A stretch of 64,000 nt of DNA from Streptomyces sp. SAI-127 (GTDB lineage: Bacteria; Actinomycetota; Actinomycetes; Streptomycetales; Streptomycetaceae). A model generated the notes under the pieces. That model made no database searches, was not told where the DNA came from, and saw only the letters and a list, made by a program, of their open reading frames with translations. Of the stretch, positions 11,895-22,228 are shown piece after piece (within the stretch, counting starts at the first letter, position 1; each line of letters begins with the position of its first letter). The stretch is taken from NCBI RefSeq assembly GCF_029894425.1, contig NZ_JARXYJ010000001.1, positions 4,030,001-4,094,000 on the forward strand, in the 5' to 3' direction. The translations under genes and the position numbers were made by a program.

Positions 11895-12336
11895 TTATTG
11901 GGCAAGAAGCTGTGCCGAGCCCGCGCGTTCGGCGTGGCCGGGAGGGGGGTCCGGCGACCGGAGCGGAGCGCGGCGTCGACGCGCTGAGACGACTCCCCGC
12001 TGGACATGACGATCTCCGCGCTCAACTCCCGGCAGCGGACCCCCTTGGTTCGGCGCGATGCGGCCCGCGGAGAAGATCGCGGGTCCGTCGTGCCGGCCGC
12101 CGTCCCGCCGGCGCCGTGGAGCCGTGGGCCCGGCGTCGCCGTCCCTCCCACGCGCCACGTCGGAGATCAGCAGGCCGACATGGGTAGGGCCGTCGAGAAT
12201 GCGCTCCGCCTGCCGCGCCCCCGACCACCGCCCGGGCGGCCCGGCCGGTGCCCAGCAGGTCGGACTCCCGGTCCGTCACCGGCTCGTCGTCCCACAACGC
12301 GAAGTCCATGCCCACCTTCCCGATCGGCATGGCCAA
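11895..12336 (-). pseudogene. Degenerate gene remnant, possible KAP-type NTPase N-terminus
   Basis: The minus strand reads VGMDFALWDDEPVTDRE followed by SDLLGTGRAA from 12336 downward. The pattern D-E-P-V-T-D then D-L-L-G recalls the N-terminal start of KAP P-loop NTPases. After about 45 codons the sequence loses family character, and no Walker A follows in any frame. The open stretches 12022-12336 and 11895-12158 are in different frames. I read this as a broken gene fused to unrelated sequence, and the family call is weak. The first 100 bp are also present in the second copy of the 218-bp repeat. Confidence 0.4.
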
Positions 12337-12680
12337 CTTACCCAGCCGGACAGCTACTTGGGACCTTTGGTACTGCCCTGTCCGCGTCCTTTGCGGTCGG
12401 AGTTGCCCGGACCTTCAGTGGAGGCGGAACTCGACGAGGGCGAAGCCGAGGGGGCGGCCCGGCCGGTGCCCAGCAGGTCGGACTCCCGGTCCGTCACCGG
12501 CTCGTCGTCCCACAACGCGAAGTCCATGCCCACCTTCCCGATCGGCACGGCCAACTTACCCAGCCGGACAGCTACTTGGGACCTTTGGTACTGCCCTGTC
12601 CGCGTCCTTTGCGGTCGGAGTTGCCCGGACCTTCGGAGGAGGCGGAGCTCAACGAGGGCGAAGCCGAGGGGGCGGCCCGG
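12234..12680. repeat. 218-bp tandem duplication with 11-bp boundary word
   Basis: Bases 12234-12451 and 12452-12669 are near-identical 218-bp units. The boundary word GGGCGGCCCGG occurs at 12234, 12452 and again at 12670, which points to unequal recombination at this microhomology. Each unit holds, on the minus strand, the last 33 codons of the Ser/Ala-rich membrane protein, the short gap, and the first codons of the downstream remnant. 218 is not a multiple of 3, so the copies are read in different frames. Confidence 0.93.
12354..12554 (-). pseudogene. Chimeric 66-codon ORF created by the tandem duplication
   Basis: This ORF starts like the KAP-like remnant (VPIGKVGMDFALWDDEP) and then, through the duplication joint at RAAPSASPS, continues as the C-terminal tail of the neighbouring membrane protein, ending GQGSTKGPK. 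It is best explained as a by-product of the 218-bp duplication rather than a selected gene, though it keeps a full reading frame and could be translated. Confidence 0.6.
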
Positions 12681-13246
12681 CTACCGGAGGCGGCAGACGG
12701 ACTCCCACCCGTCTCCGGGCTCCCGGACGCATCCGCGGAGGCGTCCACGCCGGACGTGGCGGCACCGGTCGCCGGCCCACCGGAGGCCGTCGCCCCCGGG
12801 ACCGCCGGACGGGCGGAGGACGCCGGGTCGGTGGCATCGCTCGTCCCGGCGGAGGCCGACGGGCTGCCGCCCCTCCGGTCCTGCGCGGGCCCCGAGGAGG
12901 ACAGCCCAGCGATCAGAGCCACCGCCGACACCACGCCGACGGCTCCGACGGCTCCGACGGCCACGATCACCCGCCGCGAGCGCCGGGCGTCCGTGCCGCG
13001 CGCGGCGCGCCGCCGGGCGGCCCGGCCGGCGGAATCGGGGCCGACGGAGTGCGGGCCGGGCGGCTGCCGGTCGTCGGGCTCCGGGGTCGCGGGTTCGATC
13101 CGGGGAAGCTCGGCCGTCGCGTCGTACGCGTTCTGCCAGCCGTGCGCCACCGCCGGATCCGCGTACTCCTCGTACGGCGGAGCCGATGCGGGCTGCGGCT
13201 GGTAGACCTTCGGCGCTCCGGACTCGTACTCGACTGGCCTCGACAT
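12572..13246 (-). CDS. Single-pass membrane protein with Ser/Ala-rich extracytoplasmic tail
   Basis: A 224-aa protein of no named family. Residues 1-85 are hydrophilic with Pro/Tyr-rich stretches, then a basic RRRAARGTDARRSRR run leads into one transmembrane helix at about 92-115 (VIVAVGAVGAVGVVSAVALIAGL). Residues 116-224 are low-complexity Ser/Ala/Gly/Pro, ending in a basic Lys/Arg/Gly tail. By the positive-inside rule the Ser-rich part is outside. No strong ribosome-binding site precedes the ATG. The last 33 codons lie in the 218-bp repeat. It is divergent from alaA with 126 bp between starts. Confidence 0.65.
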   Translation of the reverse strand: MSRPVEYESGAPKVYQPQPASAPPYEEYADPAVAHGWQNAYDATAELPRIEPATPEPDDRQPPGPHSVGPDSAGRAARRRAARGTDARRSRRVIVAVGAVGAVGVVSAVALIAGLSSSGPAQDRRGGSPSASAGTSDATDPASSARPAVPGATASGGPATGAATSGVDASADASGSPETGGSPSAASGSRAAPSASPSLSSASSEGPGNSDRKGRGQGSTKGPK

Positions 13247-14633: not shown

Positions 14634-15053
14634 ATGTACGAACCGATCCGCACCAAGTCGGTCCACAGCACGATGGCCGACGCCCCTCTTGACTTCCCCC
14701 ACCGCTCACGCGAGGAAGAGCTGGACATCCAGCTCGCGGGACATCTCGCGGCGCTGCTCGCCGTCACGGACGAGCTGCGGGCGGTGGCGCCGTCCGCCGA
14801 CCTGGACACCGCGGCCGAGCGGCTCGCCGAGCAGGTGGCCCGGCTGCGCGGTGGAGGGGCACCGGCCCGCGTCCCGCCGACCGCGGCCACCTCGAACCGG
14901 GACGACCTCCACCGCCGCGCCCACGCCGTGGCAGGCCGCGCCCTGCTCGTGGCGGCGTCCCGGGCGGACACGGCGGCGGCGATTCTGGCGGCGGAGCGGA
15001 TGGACGCACACACCGCCGCTCTGGCCGACCCCCGCGAACTCACCGCCCACTGA
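14634..15053 (+). CDS. Conserved hypothetical protein, 139 aa
   Basis: A small, mostly helical cytoplasmic protein with no signal peptide, membrane helix or recognised domain. It contains a heptad-like stretch LAGHLAALLAVTDELRAVAPSA and ends in an Ala-rich helix. The start is ATG with AGGAGG 8 nt upstream. I recall very similar proteins in many Streptomyces (the opening MYEPIRTKSVH looks conserved) but not a function. It is followed by a strong hairpin at 15078, so it is probably a single-gene transcript. Confidence 0.75.
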   Translation: MYEPIRTKSVHSTMADAPLDFPHRSREEELDIQLAGHLAALLAVTDELRAVAPSADLDTAAERLAEQVARLRGGGAPARVPPTAATSNRDDLHRRAHAVAGRALLVAASRADTAAAILAAERMDAHTAALADPRELTAH

Positions 15054-15240: not shown

Positions 15241-15327
15241 TCAGCCGTGTCGAGTCGGGACCGGTGCTACACCTTCCGTTCACCCTGTTCGCCGGGGAAT
15301 GTTGGGTTCCGCGAGCACGCTCCCCGT

Positions 15328-16392
15328 GTGAGACGAATCGCAGGGATCGTCCTCGCGGTCCTGCTGATCGGCGGCGTGGTGGCAGCCGTCGTGGCAGGCC
15401 GGGAAGCGGACGACAAGGGCACGGCAACGAAGACCGTGCAGGGAGTGATCGGATCGGAGAAGGCCGAGTTCTTCGCCGATCCCGACGTGGTGAAGGCCCT
15501 AGCCGCCAAGGGCTACACCGTGAAGGCCGAGACCTCCGGGTCCTGGGCCATGGAGGGCCTCGACCTCGACGGGTACGACTTCGCGTTCCCGTCCAGCCAG
15601 GCCCCGGCCACCGAGCTCGCCGCGAAGTACAAGGTACGGGGGACCCTCCCCCGCCCCTTCTACTCGCCCCTCGTCGTCGTGGCGCACAAGAGCGCCGCCG
15701 GGGTCCTCGCGAGCAACGGCCTGGCCACGCTGGACGCGGAGCACCGCGGCACCCTCAAGATGGCCGCCTACCTCGACGCGGCCCGCGAGGACCGCACCTG
15801 GCAGCAGCTCGAGGGGGCGGACAAGTACGGGGAGCTCACCGGCACCCTCTACCTCTCCAGCACCGACCCGGAGACCTCCAACTCCGGCGCCCTCTACCTC
15901 GCCGCCGCCTCCTGTGCGGCGAACGGCGGCAAGGTCGTCGCGAGCGACGCGGAGGTCAGGAGGACGGCCCCCCTGCTGCACAAGCTCGTCAGTGTGCAGG
16001 GCGCCCAGCAGTCCAGCACGGACGCGGCCTTCCGGGACTTCGTCAGCGGCGCCGGCAACCCGCTCGTCCTGGTCTACGAGTCCCAGGTCGCCTCGCTCCT
16101 CGCGGACGGGCAGCACCCCGACGACCTGGTCGTCCTCTACCCGGACACCACGGTCAACAGCGACCACACGGTCGTACCGCTGACCGAGAACGGCCAGGCC
16201 CTCGCCGGACTCCTCTCGACCGACCCGCGGTTGCGTGAGCTGGAGGTCCGGCACGGGTTCCGGCCGCAGGGCGAGGCCACCGAGTTCGCCGCGGCCGCCA
16301 CCTATCTCAAGCAGGAACTGACCGGCGTCCGCCAGGCGCCCGTGCCCACCTCCGCGGTGCTGCACGAACTGGCGCGACGGGCGCGCGGATGA
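15328..16392 (+). CDS. Membrane-anchored periplasmic-binding-protein-like protein of the TelA operon
   Basis: A 354-aa protein with an N-terminal uncleaved anchor (residues 5-25, GIVLAVLLIGGVVAAVVAG) and an extracytoplasmic type-II periplasmic-binding-protein-like domain. PBP-like features are FYSPLVVVAHKSAAGVLA, the serine-rich TLYLSSTDPETSNSG and LVYESQVASLLA. There is no lipobox cysteine. The start is GTG directly before RRIAG; no good Shine-Dalgarno is seen, so the start may shift. It heads a tight four-gene run and its domain resembles the binding half of the third gene at 17576. The ligand is unknown. Confidence 0.8.
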   Translation: MRRIAGIVLAVLLIGGVVAAVVAGREADDKGTATKTVQGVIGSEKAEFFADPDVVKALAAKGYTVKAETSGSWAMEGLDLDGYDFAFPSSQAPATELAAKYKVRGTLPRPFYSPLVVVAHKSAAGVLASNGLATLDAEHRGTLKMAAYLDAAREDRTWQQLEGADKYGELTGTLYLSSTDPETSNSGALYLAAASCAANGGKVVASDAEVRRTAPLLHKLVSVQGAQQSSTDAAFRDFVSGAGNPLVLVYESQVASLLADGQHPDDLVVLYPDTTVNSDHTVVPLTENGQALAGLLSTDPRLRELEVRHGFRPQGEATEFAAAATYLKQELTGVRQAPVPTSAVLHELARRARG

Positions 16393-16406
16393 CGGGGGAC
16401 ACAGCC

Positions 16407-17579
16407 ATGACATCCATCAACGACGACACTTTCGTACTGACGCCTCCCGAGGCCGTCGCACCCGTGCCCCGCGAGAAGGCCGGCGGACTCGTCCCCGTCG
16501 ACGACACCGTCCGCACGGACATGGCCAAGAAGGCCTCCGCGTACGTCGAGGGGCTCGCGACGCTCGACGCCCGCTCACCCGAGTTCGCCGGCAAGGTCGG
16601 TGAGATCACCACGCTCGGTGCCGGCGAGATGCGCAGCGCCGCCGCCCAGTCCAACCGGATGCTGGAGCGGACCGTGCGCAGCCTGCCGGACAAGGGCGGG
16701 GACGCGCAGTCCCTGGTGGCGGGCTCGCTCGTCGAACTGCGGCGCGTGGTCGAGGATCTGGACCCCCGGGACCTGCCCGCCGCCAAGGGCCGCAAGTTCC
16801 TGTCCCGGCTTCCCGGCGGCAACAGGCTGCGCGATCACGTGGCCAAGTACGCCTCCGCTCAAGGGACGTTGAACAAGATCGTGGGCTCGCTGCGCGGCGG
16901 CCAGGACGAACTGCGCCGTGACAACGCCGCGTTGCAGACCGAGCGGGTCCGCCTGTGGGAGACCATGGGCAAGCTCCAGGAGTACGTCGTGCTGACCGAG
17001 GCGCTGGACACGGCCGTCGAGCGGCACATCACCGCCGTAGGAGATCCGGAGGCGGCCGACTCGCTCCGCGCCGACGTCCTCTTCCCCGTCCGGCAGAAGC
17101 ACCAGGACCTGCTCACCCAGCTCGCCGTCTGCGCACAGGGCTACCTCGCCATGGACGTCGTACGCCGCAACAACGAGGAGCTGATCAAGGGCGTCGACCG
17201 GGCGGCCACGACCACCGTGTCGGCGCTGCGCATCTCCGTGATGCTGGCCTCCGCGCTCGACAACCAGAAGAAGGTCATCGAGCAGGTCAACGCGCTGCGC
17301 GGGACCACCGAGGACCTGATCCGGGGAAACGCCGAGATGCTCGCGACCCAGAGCGGGGAGATCCAGCGCATCGCCGCCGACCCGGCGGTCGGCGCCGAGA
17401 CCCTGCGCTCCGCCTTCCAGCAGATCTACCGGACCCTCGACGCGATCGACACGTACAAGGTCCAGGCGACCGAGGTGATGGCGGCGACCGTGGAGTCACT
17501 GACCTCCGAACTCCAGCACGCCAGTGGGTACCTGGAGCGCAGCCGGTCGCAGGGCGCACTGGAGGGGGGCCTCGGATGA
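16407..17579 (+). CDS. TelA family (toxic anion resistance) protein
   Basis: A 390-aa cytoplasmic, almost wholly alpha-helical protein of the TelA/KlaA family. Family blocks are LPAAKGRKFLSRLPGGNRLRD (residues about 125-145), QEYVVLTEALDTAVE, LTQLAVCAQGYLAMDVVRRN and TVSALRISVMLASALDNQK. TelA proteins are linked to tellurite and cell-envelope stress, but the molecular function is not established. I chose ATG at 16407, with GGGGGA 9 nt upstream; an ATG at 16389 overlapping the preceding stop (ATGA) is possible. Its TGA overlaps the next ATG by 4 nt, so it is cotranscribed with both binding-protein genes. Confidence 0.9.
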   Translation: MTSINDDTFVLTPPEAVAPVPREKAGGLVPVDDTVRTDMAKKASAYVEGLATLDARSPEFAGKVGEITTLGAGEMRSAAAQSNRMLERTVRSLPDKGGDAQSLVAGSLVELRRVVEDLDPRDLPAAKGRKFLSRLPGGNRLRDHVAKYASAQGTLNKIVGSLRGGQDELRRDNAALQTERVRLWETMGKLQEYVVLTEALDTAVERHITAVGDPEAADSLRADVLFPVRQKHQDLLTQLAVCAQGYLAMDVVRRNNEELIKGVDRAATTTVSALRISVMLASALDNQKKVIEQVNALRGTTEDLIRGNAEMLATQSGEIQRIAADPAVGAETLRSAFQQIYRTLDAIDTYKVQATEVMAATVESLTSELQHASGYLERSRSQGALEGGLG

Positions 17580-19135
17580 GACGACGCGCACTGGCCGCCT
17601 GTCTGGCGGCGCTCGGCCTGCTCACCGCCTGTACGGCACAGGAGGACGGGATCAGCGGCGTTTCGACGCCCGGCGTCCCCGGGCCCGCCGAGCCGGGCAC
17701 CCTCCGGGTCCTCGCGTCCAGCGAGCTGAGCGACATGGCCCCGGTTCTCGCCCGGGTCGAGAAGGACACCGGCATCAAGGTCCGGCCGACGTACATCGGC
17801 ACCCTGGACGCCGTGGACATGCTGGCGAAGGGCACGACCGACGGACAGTACGACGCCCTGTGGCTGTCGTCGAACGACTACCTCCGGCTGCGCCCCGAGG
17901 CGGCCGGGAAGGTGGTCTCCGAGACGCCCGTGATGTCGAGCCCGGTCGCGATCGGGGTGAAGCAGGCGACGGTGAAGGCACTCGGCTGGAAGCCCGATGA
18001 CGTCACCTGGTCCCAGGTCGAGCAGGCCGTCCAGGACGGAAAGCTGACGTACGGCATGACCGACCCGGCCCGCTCCAACTCCGGCTTCGCCACGCTGGTT
18101 TCGGTGGCCTCCGCCCTCTCCGGCGCCCAGTCGGCGCTCACCGACGCCGATGTCGGCAAGGCCACGCCCCGGCTGAAGGAGTTCTTCAAGGGCCAGAAGC
18201 TGACCTCGGGTTCCTCGGGCTGGCTGGCGGCGACGTACGACCGGCGCGGAGACGTCGACGCCCTGCTCAACTACGAGTCCGTCCTCAAGGGCATCCCCGG
18301 CCTGACCGTGATCCGCCCCCGCGACGGCGTGATCACCGCCGACTATCCGCTCACCACGCTCAAGTCCACGAGCACGCGGACCCGCGAGGACGTCCGCCGG
18401 CTGACGGAGGACCTGCGCACCGAGAAGATCCAGCGGGAGATCACCGCGCGCACCCACCGCCGCCCGGTCGTCGCCTCGGTCCCTCCGGCGAGCGGTCTGG
18501 ACACCACCCGCCGGCGTGAACTGCCCTTCCCGGGCACCCGTTCCGTCGCCGACGGCCTGCTCGACTCCTACGAGAACGAACTGCGCCGCCCGTCGAGGAC
18601 CGTATACGTCCTGGACACCTCGGGCTCGATGGAGGGCGACCGCCTGGACCGCCTCAAGACGGCCCTCACCGACCTCACCGGCGACTTCCGCGAACGCGAG
18701 GAGGTCACGCTGATGCCGTTCGGCTCGGAGGTGAAGAGCGTACGGACCCATGTGGTCGAGCCGGCGGACCCGCAGACCGGCCTGGCCGCGATCCGCGAGG
18801 ACACCTCGGCGCTCTCCGCCGACGGCGACACCGCGATCTACACCTCACTGGAGAAGGCGTACGGCCATCTCCGCGCCGACCGCGACACGTTCACGTCGAT
18901 CGTGCTGATGACGGACGGCGAGAACACGGCGGGCGCCGACGCCGGGGACTTCGACGACTTCTACCGGGACAGCCTGACCCCCGCCGCACAGCGGATCCCG
19001 GTCTTCCCCATCCTCTTCGGCGACTCCGACCGCTCCGAACTGGCCCACATCGCCGAGCTGACCGGCGGCCGCCTCTTCGACGCCCGGCAGGGCTCGCTGG
19101 ACGGCGCCTTCGAGGAGATCCGTGGCTATCAGTAG
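17576..19135 (+). CDS. Lipoprotein fusing a periplasmic-binding domain to a vWA domain
   Basis: A 519-aa secreted lipoprotein. The lipobox LLTAC puts the lipidated cysteine at residue 19. Residues 45-310 form an extracellular solute-binding-like domain (GTLRVLASSELSDMAPVL, TYGMTDPARSNSGFATLVS). Residues 340-515 are a von Willebrand A domain with a MIDAS: DTSGSM starting at D347, a Thr in DTAIYTSLE, and Asp in LMTDGENT. vWA domains bind protein ligands through a metal, so the protein may sense or scaffold at the membrane surface. The start overlaps the telA stop (ATGA) and the next gene begins 14 bp inside its end. Confidence 0.9.
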   Translation: MRRRALAACLAALGLLTACTAQEDGISGVSTPGVPGPAEPGTLRVLASSELSDMAPVLARVEKDTGIKVRPTYIGTLDAVDMLAKGTTDGQYDALWLSSNDYLRLRPEAAGKVVSETPVMSSPVAIGVKQATVKALGWKPDDVTWSQVEQAVQDGKLTYGMTDPARSNSGFATLVSVASALSGAQSALTDADVGKATPRLKEFFKGQKLTSGSSGWLAATYDRRGDVDALLNYESVLKGIPGLTVIRPRDGVITADYPLTTLKSTSTRTREDVRRLTEDLRTEKIQREITARTHRRPVVASVPPASGLDTTRRRELPFPGTRSVADGLLDSYENELRRPSRTVYVLDTSGSMEGDRLDRLKTALTDLTGDFREREEVTLMPFGSEVKSVRTHVVEPADPQTGLAAIREDTSALSADGDTAIYTSLEKAYGHLRADRDTFTSIVLMTDGENTAGADAGDFDDFYRDSLTPAAQRIPVFPILFGDSDRSELAHIAELTGGRLFDARQGSLDGAFEEIRGYQ

Positions 19136-19733
19136 GTATCTGGAGTCCCGCAAGAACATCGCGGGAAGCGCGTGCGGTCTGGTCGGCCTGGTGCTGACCT
19201 TCGCGGGGGTGGCCGGCCCGTACTGGCCCGTGGTCGTGGCCGGGCTCTACGGCGCGGGCGCGCTGATCGCCCCGCCGGAACGCCCCGCGCTGCCCGACCT
19301 CCCGGACCCGTCGGCCCAACTGGACGAGGTGCGGAGCGACTTCGAGAAGGTCCGCGCCTACCTGGCGGACATCGACCTGTCGGTCACGGCGGCGGCGCGG
19401 CTCCGTGAACTCACCGAGCTGCTGACCGCGTTGCTCGACCAGGGCTGGAGCAAGGAGCTGCTGGCCCATGACCCGGAGGGTGTGCACTCGCTGTCCCGGA
19501 TCGTCCGGCGCGACCTGCCCGAGGCCGTCGACAGCTTCGTACGCACCCGGTGGTGGACGCGGATGACACCGGGCACGGAGTCCCCCGAACTCCACCTGGA
19601 ACAGCAGCTGGGCCTCATGAAGCAGGACGCACAGCAGCTGGCGGCGGCCCTCCGGGACACGGAGGCCCGCCGCCAGGAGACCCACACCCGGTATCTGGAG
19701 GACCGGGGCGGGCACAACGGGGTCAGTGCGTGA
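19122..19733 (+). CDS. Two-TM helical membrane protein, XpaC-like position and shape
   Basis: A 203-aa protein with two close transmembrane helices at residues about 13-30 and 34-50, then a charged helical cytoplasmic domain (LDEVRSDFEKVRAYLADIDLS, HLEQQLGLMKQDAQQLAAAL). This is the architecture of XpaC proteins, which lie next to TelA in Firmicutes. Sequence-level homology is not certain by eye, so XpaC-like is an inference from shape and context. The start is GTG, 14 bp inside the vWA gene, showing strong coupling. It ends the operon. Confidence 0.75.
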   Translation: MAISRYLESRKNIAGSACGLVGLVLTFAGVAGPYWPVVVAGLYGAGALIAPPERPALPDLPDPSAQLDEVRSDFEKVRAYLADIDLSVTAAARLRELTELLTALLDQGWSKELLAHDPEGVHSLSRIVRRDLPEAVDSFVRTRWWTRMTPGTESPELHLEQQLGLMKQDAQQLAAALRDTEARRQETHTRYLEDRGGHNGVSA

Positions 19734-20075: not shown

Positions 20076-21899
20076 TCAGCCCAGGCGCTGCACCAGCGCG
20101 CGGTACTCGTCCCACAGCTCCTTCGGCGTGTGGTCACCGAAGGTGTTGAGGTGCTCGGGGATCAGGGACGCCTCCTCCCGCCACACCTCCTTGTCGACCG
20201 TGAGCAGGAACTCCAGGTCGGAGGGGGCCAGGTCGAGGCCCTTGGTGTCGAGCGCGTCCTTGGTCGGCAGGATGCCGATCGGGGTCTCGACGCCCTCCGC
20301 CTTGCCCTCCAGCCGCTCCACGATCCACTTCAGAACGCGGCTGTTCTCGCCGAAGCCGGGCCAGACGAACTTGCCCTCGTCGTTCTTGCGGAACCAGTTG
20401 ACGTAGTAGATCTTCGGCAGCTTCGACTGGTCCTTGTCCTTGGCCACGTCGACCCAGTGCCCCATGTAGTCGCCCATGTTGTAGCCGCAGAACGGCAGCA
20501 TGGCGAAGGGGTCGCGGCGCAGCTCGCCGACCTTGCCCTCGGCGGCGGCGGTCTTCTCGGAGGCCACGTTGGCGCCGAGGAAGACGCCGTGGTTCCAGTC
20601 GAAGGACTCCGTCACCAGCGGCACCGCGCTCGCGCGCCGCCCGCCGAAGAGGATCGCCGAGATCGGCACGCCCTTGGGGTCCTCCCACTCGGGCGCGATG
20701 ATCGGGCACTGGGCGGCGGGCGTGGTGAAGCGGGCGTTGGGGTGGGCGGCCGGGACGTCCGAGGAGGGCGTCCAGTCGTTGCCCTTCCAGTCGGTGAGGT
20801 GGGCCGGGGTCTCCTCCGTCATGCCCTCCCACCAGATGTCGTTGTCGTCGGTGAGGGCGACGTTGGTGAAGACGGAGTTGCCCCACAGCGTCTTCATCGC
20901 GTTGGCGTTGGTGTGCTCACCGGTGCCGGGCGCGACGCCGAAGAAGCCGGCCTCGGGGTTGATCGCGTAGAGGCGGCCGTCCTCGCCGAAGCGCATCCAG
21001 GCGATGTCGTCGCCGATCGTCTCGACGGTCCAGCCGGAGATCGTGGGTTCCAGCATGGCGAGGTTGGTCTTGCCGCAGGCGCTCGGGAAGGCGGCGGCGA
21101 CGTACTTGGACTCGCCCTGCGGGGGCGTGAGCTTGAGGATGAGCATGTGCTCGGCGAGCCAGCCCTCGTCGCGGGCCATCACCGAGGCGATGCGCAGGGC
21201 GTAGCACTTCTTGCCGAGCAGGGCGTTGCCGCCGTAGCCCGAGCCGTAGGACCAGATCTCGCGGGACTCCGGGAAGTGCGAGATGTACTTGGTGGAGTTG
21301 CACGGCCACGGGACGTCCGCCTCGCCCTCCGCGAGGGGGGCGCCGAGGGTGTGCACGGCCTTCACGAAGAAGCCGTCGGAGCCGAGTTCGTCGAGGACCG
21401 GCTGTCCCATGCGGGTCATCGTGCGCATGGAGACCGCGACATAGGCGGAGTCGGTGATCTCGACGCCGATCGCGGAGAGGTCCGAGCCGAGGGGGCCCAT
21501 GCAGAAGGGGACGACGTACATCGTCCGGCCCTTCATCGAACCGCGGAAGACGCCCTTCTCCCCGGTGAAGATGTCGCGCATCTCCGCCGGTGCCTTCCAG
21601 TGGTTCGTGGGCCCCGCGTCCTCCTCCTTCTCCGAGCAGATGAAGGTGCGGTCCTCGACGCGCGCGACGTCGGTCGGGTCGGAGGCCGCGTAGTAGGAGT
21701 TGGGGCGCTTGATCGGGTCGAGCTTCTTGAAGGTGCCCTTCGCCACGAGCTCCTCGCACAGGCGCTCGTACTCCGCTTCGGATCCGTCACACCAGACCAC
21801 GCTGTCCGGCTCGGTCAGTTCGGCGATCTCGTTCACCCACGAGATCAGTTCCTTGTGCTGGGTGGGGATGACGGGGGGAGCCGCGATGTCGCGCGCCAC
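20076..21899 (-). CDS. pckG: Phosphoenolpyruvate carboxykinase (GTP)
   Basis: A 607-aa GTP-dependent PEP carboxykinase, which converts oxaloacetate to PEP with GTP at the start of gluconeogenesis. The kinase-1a loop is [13 protein letters not shown] with K277, followed by the metal-binding [10 protein letters not shown]. Other family blocks are [20 protein letters not shown] [29 protein letters not shown] and [10 protein letters not shown]. The GTG start has AGGAGC 5 nt upstream. An ATG at 21995 would add a basic 32-residue leader lacking family similarity, so I rejected it. The length agrees with actinobacterial PckG. Confidence 0.97.
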
Positions 21900-22228
21900 G
21901 ATTGCTCCTAGATGAGGGATTTTTTGTTTGGAGGCCCCGTGGGGGCTGCGACCCGGATGCTTTTCGTGCCTTTTGGTGGTGACCTTGGCGCTCATCCGGT
22001 GTCGACCGCACTCATTTGATCATCCGACCGAACCGCCCATCTGTCCAGAGGGCATCACAGGTGAGCGGAGTGAGGATCGCCACGCCCCCTTTGGGCACAG
22101 CGCGTTTATTTGCGTGCACTTAACGTTCAGCCAACCGTTTCTTTACTGATCAACTCCCGTGAGACGATGGCCACTCTTGGCCGTTCCTCACGCTCTACTC
22201 ATGCGTAACTTACGGTCCCGTAGGTACG
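21900..22228. promoter_or_regulatory. Divergent promoter region of pckG and hemolysin III gene
   Basis: This 329-bp region is locally AT-richer than its surroundings, as expected for promoters. On the pckG side an A/T-rich leader is followed upstream by a small hairpin, GCCCC-GTG-GGGGC, at 21934-21946. On the other side TACGAT at 22225-22230 is a good -10 element but runs into the first ATG of the hemolysin gene, suggesting a leaderless or nearly leaderless transcript from a slightly later start. I see no clear operator. Confidence 0.4.

Follow-up and report, generated by a model that had tools for sequence, protein, structure and literature searches.

Signal sensing by a binding protein that takes no part in transport is exemplified by GlnH-GlnX-PknG, and PspA, the phage-shock protein of the ESCRT-III superfamily, is established in membrane protection. 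The system considered here is a four-gene operon with a gene for TelA, located in a 64,000-nucleotide stretch of Streptomyces sp. SAI-127 (contig NZ_JARXYJ010000001.1, positions 4,030,001 to 4,094,000), the whole of which is called the window. Its TelA is accompanied by an anchored relative of periplasmic binding proteins (PBPs, gene 1), a lipoprotein-like fusion of a PBP and a von Willebrand factor A (vWA) domain (gene 3), and a protein with two putative transmembrane (TM) segments (gene 4). According to the accessible part of PMC12791056, the Listeria xpaC-telA pair (lmo1966-1967) goes up under bacteriocin stress, a telA disruption mutant is 4-fold more susceptible to nisin and 2-fold more to tellurite, the mechanism of TelA is unknown, and YaaN is the Bacillus TelA. 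The Streptomyces operon resembles this pair, with its published link to envelope stress, in that TelA stands beside a membrane-associated partner; however, the four XpaC-TelA pairs met in the phylum sample have no matched external binding or vWA proteins, and gene 4 has no match to the XpaC family PF10112. In the Ter systems (TerD, TerC, TerF, and TelA), TelA and the vWA protein TerF were earlier proposed to form sub-membrane structures (PMC7824862, in the portion available). TelA, a vWA protein, and such a proposed structure are the common points, whereas none of the 14 TerD places of this genome lies within the window and the vWA domain here is predicted to be extracellular and is PBP-fused. 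A survey of phage-shock protein (PSP) systems reports AAA partners as well as a coupling to lipoproteins of the cell surface, and its main text, as far as accessible, contains no TelA, vWA, or von Willebrand (PMC11237479). The likeness to the PSP system lies in ten genomes that have PspA in TelA's slot beside the same kind of outside parts; the difference is that no PspA (PF04012) is found among the four proteins, the only PspA match of the genome being about 3.5 Mb away. From transport-free PBP sensors such as 6lkg, the operon differs in having neither a histidine kinase nor PknG, and a helical protein on the membrane side would be its output. The literature searched (supplements and most subscription papers were beyond reach) yielded no description of the cassette, and a 2012 survey of Ter-dependent systems may hold TelA neighbourhoods like these.

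Beside the computational observations on the operon, its nearly all-or-none inheritance, the PBP and vWA identities, the complete metal-ion-dependent adhesion site (MIDAS), and the PspA that takes TelA's slot elsewhere, we place an explanation whose chances we judge to be about even. It proposes a transporter-less trans-envelope cassette, in which external binding proteins, a two-TM link, and TelA as a PspA-like protein of the inner face serve envelope protection. In the arrangement that we infer for the protein contacts, the topology of the gene 4 tail, the direction of the signal, the ligand, and the action of TelA on the membrane, the TM-anchored product of gene 1 and the lipoprotein of gene 3, with its metal-dependent vWA adhesion domain, would sample a ligand or the state of the cell surface. 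The gene 4 product, with two TM segments and a cytoplasmic tail, would link these binding proteins to TelA on the inner face, and TelA, as a PspA-like helical protein, would stabilise or remodel the membrane or anchor a sub-membrane assembly. The new part would be the external sensing arm on envelope protection of the TelA/PSP type, which was found nowhere described in the literature searched. Rather tentatively, we extend this to a class of systems in which external solute-binding and vWA proteins, with no transporter or kinase, directly control an exchangeable, membrane-remodelling protein of the inner face, PspA in some Actinomycetota and TelA in others, TelA being a non-homologous functional counterpart of PspA. 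Should one external sensing cassette be able to use either TelA or PspA as its output, a protein named after tellurite becomes directly testable for membrane protection, and an extracellular arm for ligand sensing is added to the PSP response. The parts of the locus are as follows.

15270..15283, + strand: Pho-box-like site CA-N9-CA, 58-59 nt before gene 1
15296..15310, + strand: inverted repeat GGAAY-N6-TTCC, putative promoter or operator, 32-33 nt before gene 1
15328..16392, + strand: gene 1, GTG start, 354 aa, binding protein on one predicted N-terminal TM anchor (hhalign, hydrophobicity)
16389..17579, + strand: TelA, start possibly at 16407 (PF05816, E 4e-84)
17576..19135, + strand: gene 3, lipoprotein-like PBP-vWA fusion (Pfam, structure model)
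17690..18478, + strand: PBP domain of gene 3, approximate limits (Pfam, model, fold matches)
18590..19093, + strand: vWA domain of gene 3, approximate limits (Pfam, model, fold matches)
19122..19733, + strand: gene 4, 203 aa, two N-terminal hydrophobic segments and a soluble tail (hydrophobicity)

The four genes form one coupled operon. The open reading frames (ORFs) lie at 15328-19733 on the + strand, exactly where the sequence-only reading had placed them, and the overlaps it described at the last two joints are exactly 4 nt between TelA and gene 3 and 14 nt between genes 3 and 4; each is available in 79 of 80 relatives. The overlap between gene 1 and TelA is also 4 nt if TelA begins at the first ATG (16389). 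Neither an ATP-binding cassette permease nor an ATPase stands beside the PBP genes in the operon or its neighbours, which supports the earlier description of a coherent, transporter-less system with parts on both sides of the membrane. Inheritance was followed in 121 Streptomyces genomes, and across the phylum in a sample of 246 genomes spread over it; a separate collection of 80 Streptomyces loci was drawn by a gene 3 query, some gene 4 copies being cut by contig ends. TelA is present in 45 of the 121 genomes, and exactly these 45 also carry gene 3 at no less than 59% identity; gene 4 occurs in all 45 and gene 1 in 44. By coordinates, all four are adjacent, in order, and on one contig in 43 of the 45. 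G351 has the set split over two contigs, and in G296 gene 1 is missing and the TelA match is truncated; the gene 4 match crosses one TGA near its end in four genomes (G281, G315, G322, G341), and that of gene 3 is broken into two in G273. Where TelA is missing (76 genomes), close forms survive as fragments only, in G335, G306 (gene 1), and G355 (gene 4). The set is thus nearly all-or-none across the genus, and the genes, far from being rarely together, are all present in 80/80 of the fetched loci. These data also bear on the simplest alternative, that the genes are together by shared descent alone and have no common function. Close relatives share gene order anyway; however, the presence or absence of the whole set within one genus, the overlaps available in 79/80 loci, and three gene orders across family codes already disfavour this explanation, which we regard as very improbable. 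Some alignment rows were dropped (L139 for TelA and L017 for gene 4, the references of which run over stops), and L011 and L045 were left out of the remade gene 4 alignment.

Two side observations concern relatives of the set. At G335:C1:483259-484073, a decayed remnant is seen in which a stop-bearing gene 1 piece continues into part of gene 4, suggestive of a deletion that removed the centre of the operon. In G123 (L148, 4692-8345), a second, distant pair of a gene-1-like and a PBP-vWA gene, about 28-43% identical to those of the window, has no adjoining TelA or gene 4 and is followed by a 257-aa membrane protein of unknown family; by coordinates, the pair also occurs in 13 other genomes of the 121-genome sample.

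Outside Streptomyces, the same parts meet in other orders. TelA exceeds the Pfam cut-off in 13 of the 246 phylum genomes, at 15 places. In eight genomes it is accompanied by PBP-vWA, namely four Streptomyces (the window's included) and G074, G096, G116, and G209, which belong to two other family codes and combine TelA with the two binding proteins and a two-TM gene. Streptomyces has the order 1-TelA-3-4, G074 has 1-3-4-TelA, and the remaining three, G096, G116, and G209, have 3-4-1-TelA (in G209 a contig break inside gene 1 spreads the set over two contigs). Genes 1 and 3 of these four genomes were found by the Streptomyces profiles and TelA by Pfam. Four further TelA places (G012, G165, G233, G185) are xpaC-telA pairs, with XpaC over the PF10112 cut-off in 4/4; a partner of the second TelA of G185 was not found by these profiles. 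In G133, one TelA stands with an independently found gene 4 homologue (E 5e-18), and the other precedes an AAA ATPase whose Pfam domains (AAA, AAA_lid_6) are those of its counterpart in the PspA operons described below and which matches the profile of their AAA ATPases at E 4e-93.

A hint at function comes from loci in which PspA stands in the position of TelA. The neighbourhoods of 35 near-full-length PBP-vWA genes were read, of which 8 contain TelA and 10 contain PspA; 11 of about 46 places remained outside this reading (G153:C48, G192:5729737, G206:3204387, two in G237, G133:C4, G049, G038, G143, G093, and G214). PspA is over the Pfam cut-off in 10/10 PspA-type loci, from ten genomes in six family codes (f44, f31, f39, f47, f20, f57). 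Profiles recognized the two-TM gene in nine of them and the anchored PBP in seven; the two-TM gene of G196 and the anchored PBP of G223, the latter with no Pfam match, were recognized by eye. G129 and G154 served as profile seeds, and in all of the other eight, independent loci the two-TM gene lies between PBP-vWA and PspA. In a tree, a single clade (support 1.0) unites the TelA-type PBP-vWA proteins with a Streptomyces pair without TelA; of the ten PspA-type proteins, nine share a 0.999 clade with one PspA-less place (G237), and the tenth (G028) lies outside. The PBP, PBP-vWA, and two-TM parts thus accompany two different cytoplasmic proteins, with no homology implied, and this suggests that TelA does a job similar to that of PspA. 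PspA in the slot of TelA is independent support for an envelope role, so that the envelope-stress or assembly system of the sequence-only reading gains in this part.

Several results weigh against the proposed cassette. Among the remaining 17 of the 35 places, 15 have neither TelA nor PspA, one lies by a Ser/Thr kinase, and one has only a gene-1-like protein; in L154, L157, and L158, PBP-vWA and the two-TM gene are separated by 1.4-2.6 kb of other sequence. Sequence kinship between TelA and PspA is undetectable (hhalign 0.3%) and the TelA structure model yields no diagnostic fold match, so the swap holds by position only. Between the three versions (Streptomyces, other TelA, and PspA), the two-TM proteins match weakly or not at all (19.5%, 13.3%, 10.8%, and 1.9%), the remaining comparisons and controls giving <1% (hhalign), and the Streptomyces gene 4 profile missed the two-TM genes of G074, G096, G116, and G209, which are therefore assigned by position and topology; a later gene 4 profile included these genes, and its matches to them are by construction.

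Apart from this argument, two PBP-vWA neighbourhoods are worth noticing. The PspA-type operon of G129 contains a lipid II flippase gene (MurJ, E 1e-86; L151, 8054-9685), and in G192 (L150, 6394-9891) a Ser/Thr protein kinase gene lies directly upstream of the PBP-vWA gene, perhaps a version with a kinase output.

In gene 3, Pfam assigns SBP_bac_11 (E 8e-18) and VWA_2 (E 2e-11), the signal peptide ends in a lipobox, LLTAC, as read by eye, and the structure model (pLDDT 87.7) has the PBP fold. The vWA domain has a complete MIDAS, as all five residues (DxSxS, T, D) are present in 24/24 aligned proteins. The fusion had been called unusual, which does not apply to the phylum, where the PBP-vWA profile finds about 46 near-full-length places in the 246 genomes (hand count). 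A second PBP-vWA gene exists in the genome that contains the window (G000:C1:8672786-8674471; L162); near it, neither TelA nor PspA nor a two-TM partner was found. Gene 1 has a single hydrophobic segment (residues 4-22) and no Pfam match at the gathering score. Its likeness to PBPs, read at first from the one sequence, is borne out by comparison of its family profile with the PBP domain of gene 3 (hhalign probability 98.4%, E 6e-15, 256 columns). A search of the own genome with gene 3 recovers gene 1 (30% identity, E 3.8e-6), and about 40 of the 120 listed gene 1 relatives carry a precomputed PF13531 match (hand count). By these sequence comparisons, gene 1 is a relative of binding proteins.

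The complete MIDAS also agrees with a different function, in which the vWA and PBP domains would hold clients that are secreted or bound to the wall, and either TelA or PspA, together with the AAA ATPase, would be the inner scaffold of a surface-assembly or chaperone machine that builds or repairs instead of sensing stress. An AAA ATPase is found in 7/10 PspA-type loci and beside the one TelA of G133; however, none was matched in the regions with TelA and PBP-vWA of the seven genomes scanned, and no client gene was seen travelling with the set. The ATPase carries AAA_lid_6, which we take not to be the MoxR type. Chaperone pairs of MoxR and vWA proteins are discussed in the accessible part of PMC7824862 and lend this explanation some further ground, but we consider it unlikely.

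Among the folds closest to the PBP domain of gene 3 are those of sulfate and hexose-phosphate binders and of 6lkg, the title of which refers to two-component signal transduction. Together with the promoter, these folds favour another alternative, a nutrient or oxyanion sensor (for phosphate, sulfate, or sugar phosphate) with TelA as the output, under PhoP control and with secondary envelope effects. The Pho-box-like repeat, comparable in geometry to the Pho box repeats described in the accessible part of PMC7244524, is conserved within 150 nt upstream of gene 1 in 81/83 loci, and GGAAY-N6-TTCC is found upstream of gene 1 in 83/83; in the window and in 36 loci, the distance of each to the gene is constant. 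A first promoter alignment left out 44 of the 80 loci, all of which are counted in the 83-locus tally. Among random 200-nt pieces from the same loci, about 1.5% contain the one pattern and about 1.5% the other. The Pho-box-like pattern has one match in the window, yet 59 of 100 whole-window shuffles have at least one; the longer pattern containing the inverted repeat has none in 100 shuffles, and the composite promoter pattern occurs exactly once in the genome. The promoter loci come from close relatives, so their agreement speaks of conservation and is not a proof of PhoP binding. Judged by these motifs, the promoter hints at PhoP control, and the nutrient sensor as a whole seems improbable to us.

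TelA itself is assigned to PF05816 (283 bits versus a cut-off of 30, profile positions 3-331 of 332). No TM segment was found in it, and the moderate structure model (pLDDT 67.9) matches generic helical proteins only. The family name raises the possibility of an operon for resistance to tellurite or toxic anions, to which the 2-fold tellurite effect of Listeria telA could be added; the stronger reported effect is on nisin (PMC12791056, accessible part). TerD is absent from the window, as noted above, and ORFs and Pfam reveal no reductase or pump within the four genes, which makes such resistance quite improbable as the function of the operon.

The link that the proposed cassette requires across the membrane would be provided by gene 4, the two hydrophobic segments of which were called at a lenient threshold. 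The description of this protein as XpaC-shaped stands in size and topology, and the same slot in G096 is occupied by a member of the XpaC family (PF10112, 39.5 bits versus a cut-off of 29.8); in G116 the match is sub-threshold (22.5 bits), and in G074 nothing clear was found. In sequence the description holds less well: gene 4 has no Pfam match at the gathering score, and its similarity to XpaC is weak (hhalign 10.8%), as it is to the two-TM genes of other lineages (10.8%). The XpaC idea thus gains support by position, while the kinship of gene 4 itself is unproven.

The window covers 4.03-4.09 Mb of a genome of 10.7 Mb, which is close to that of Streptomyces canus; this species provides the best named relatives of genes 1 and 4 and, in strain DSM 40017, a counterpart 96% identical to gene 3. 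The operon is flanked by an SCO4983-family gene (14634-15053) on one side and a converging phosphoenolpyruvate carboxykinase (PEPCK) gene (20076-21995) on the other, past which aminotransferase and HlyIII genes follow. The labels xpaC, PEPCK, MurJ, HlyIII, and aminotransferase were upheld by Pfam. At 12234-12681, the window contains a 218-bp unit in 2.1 tandem copies with 97% matches.

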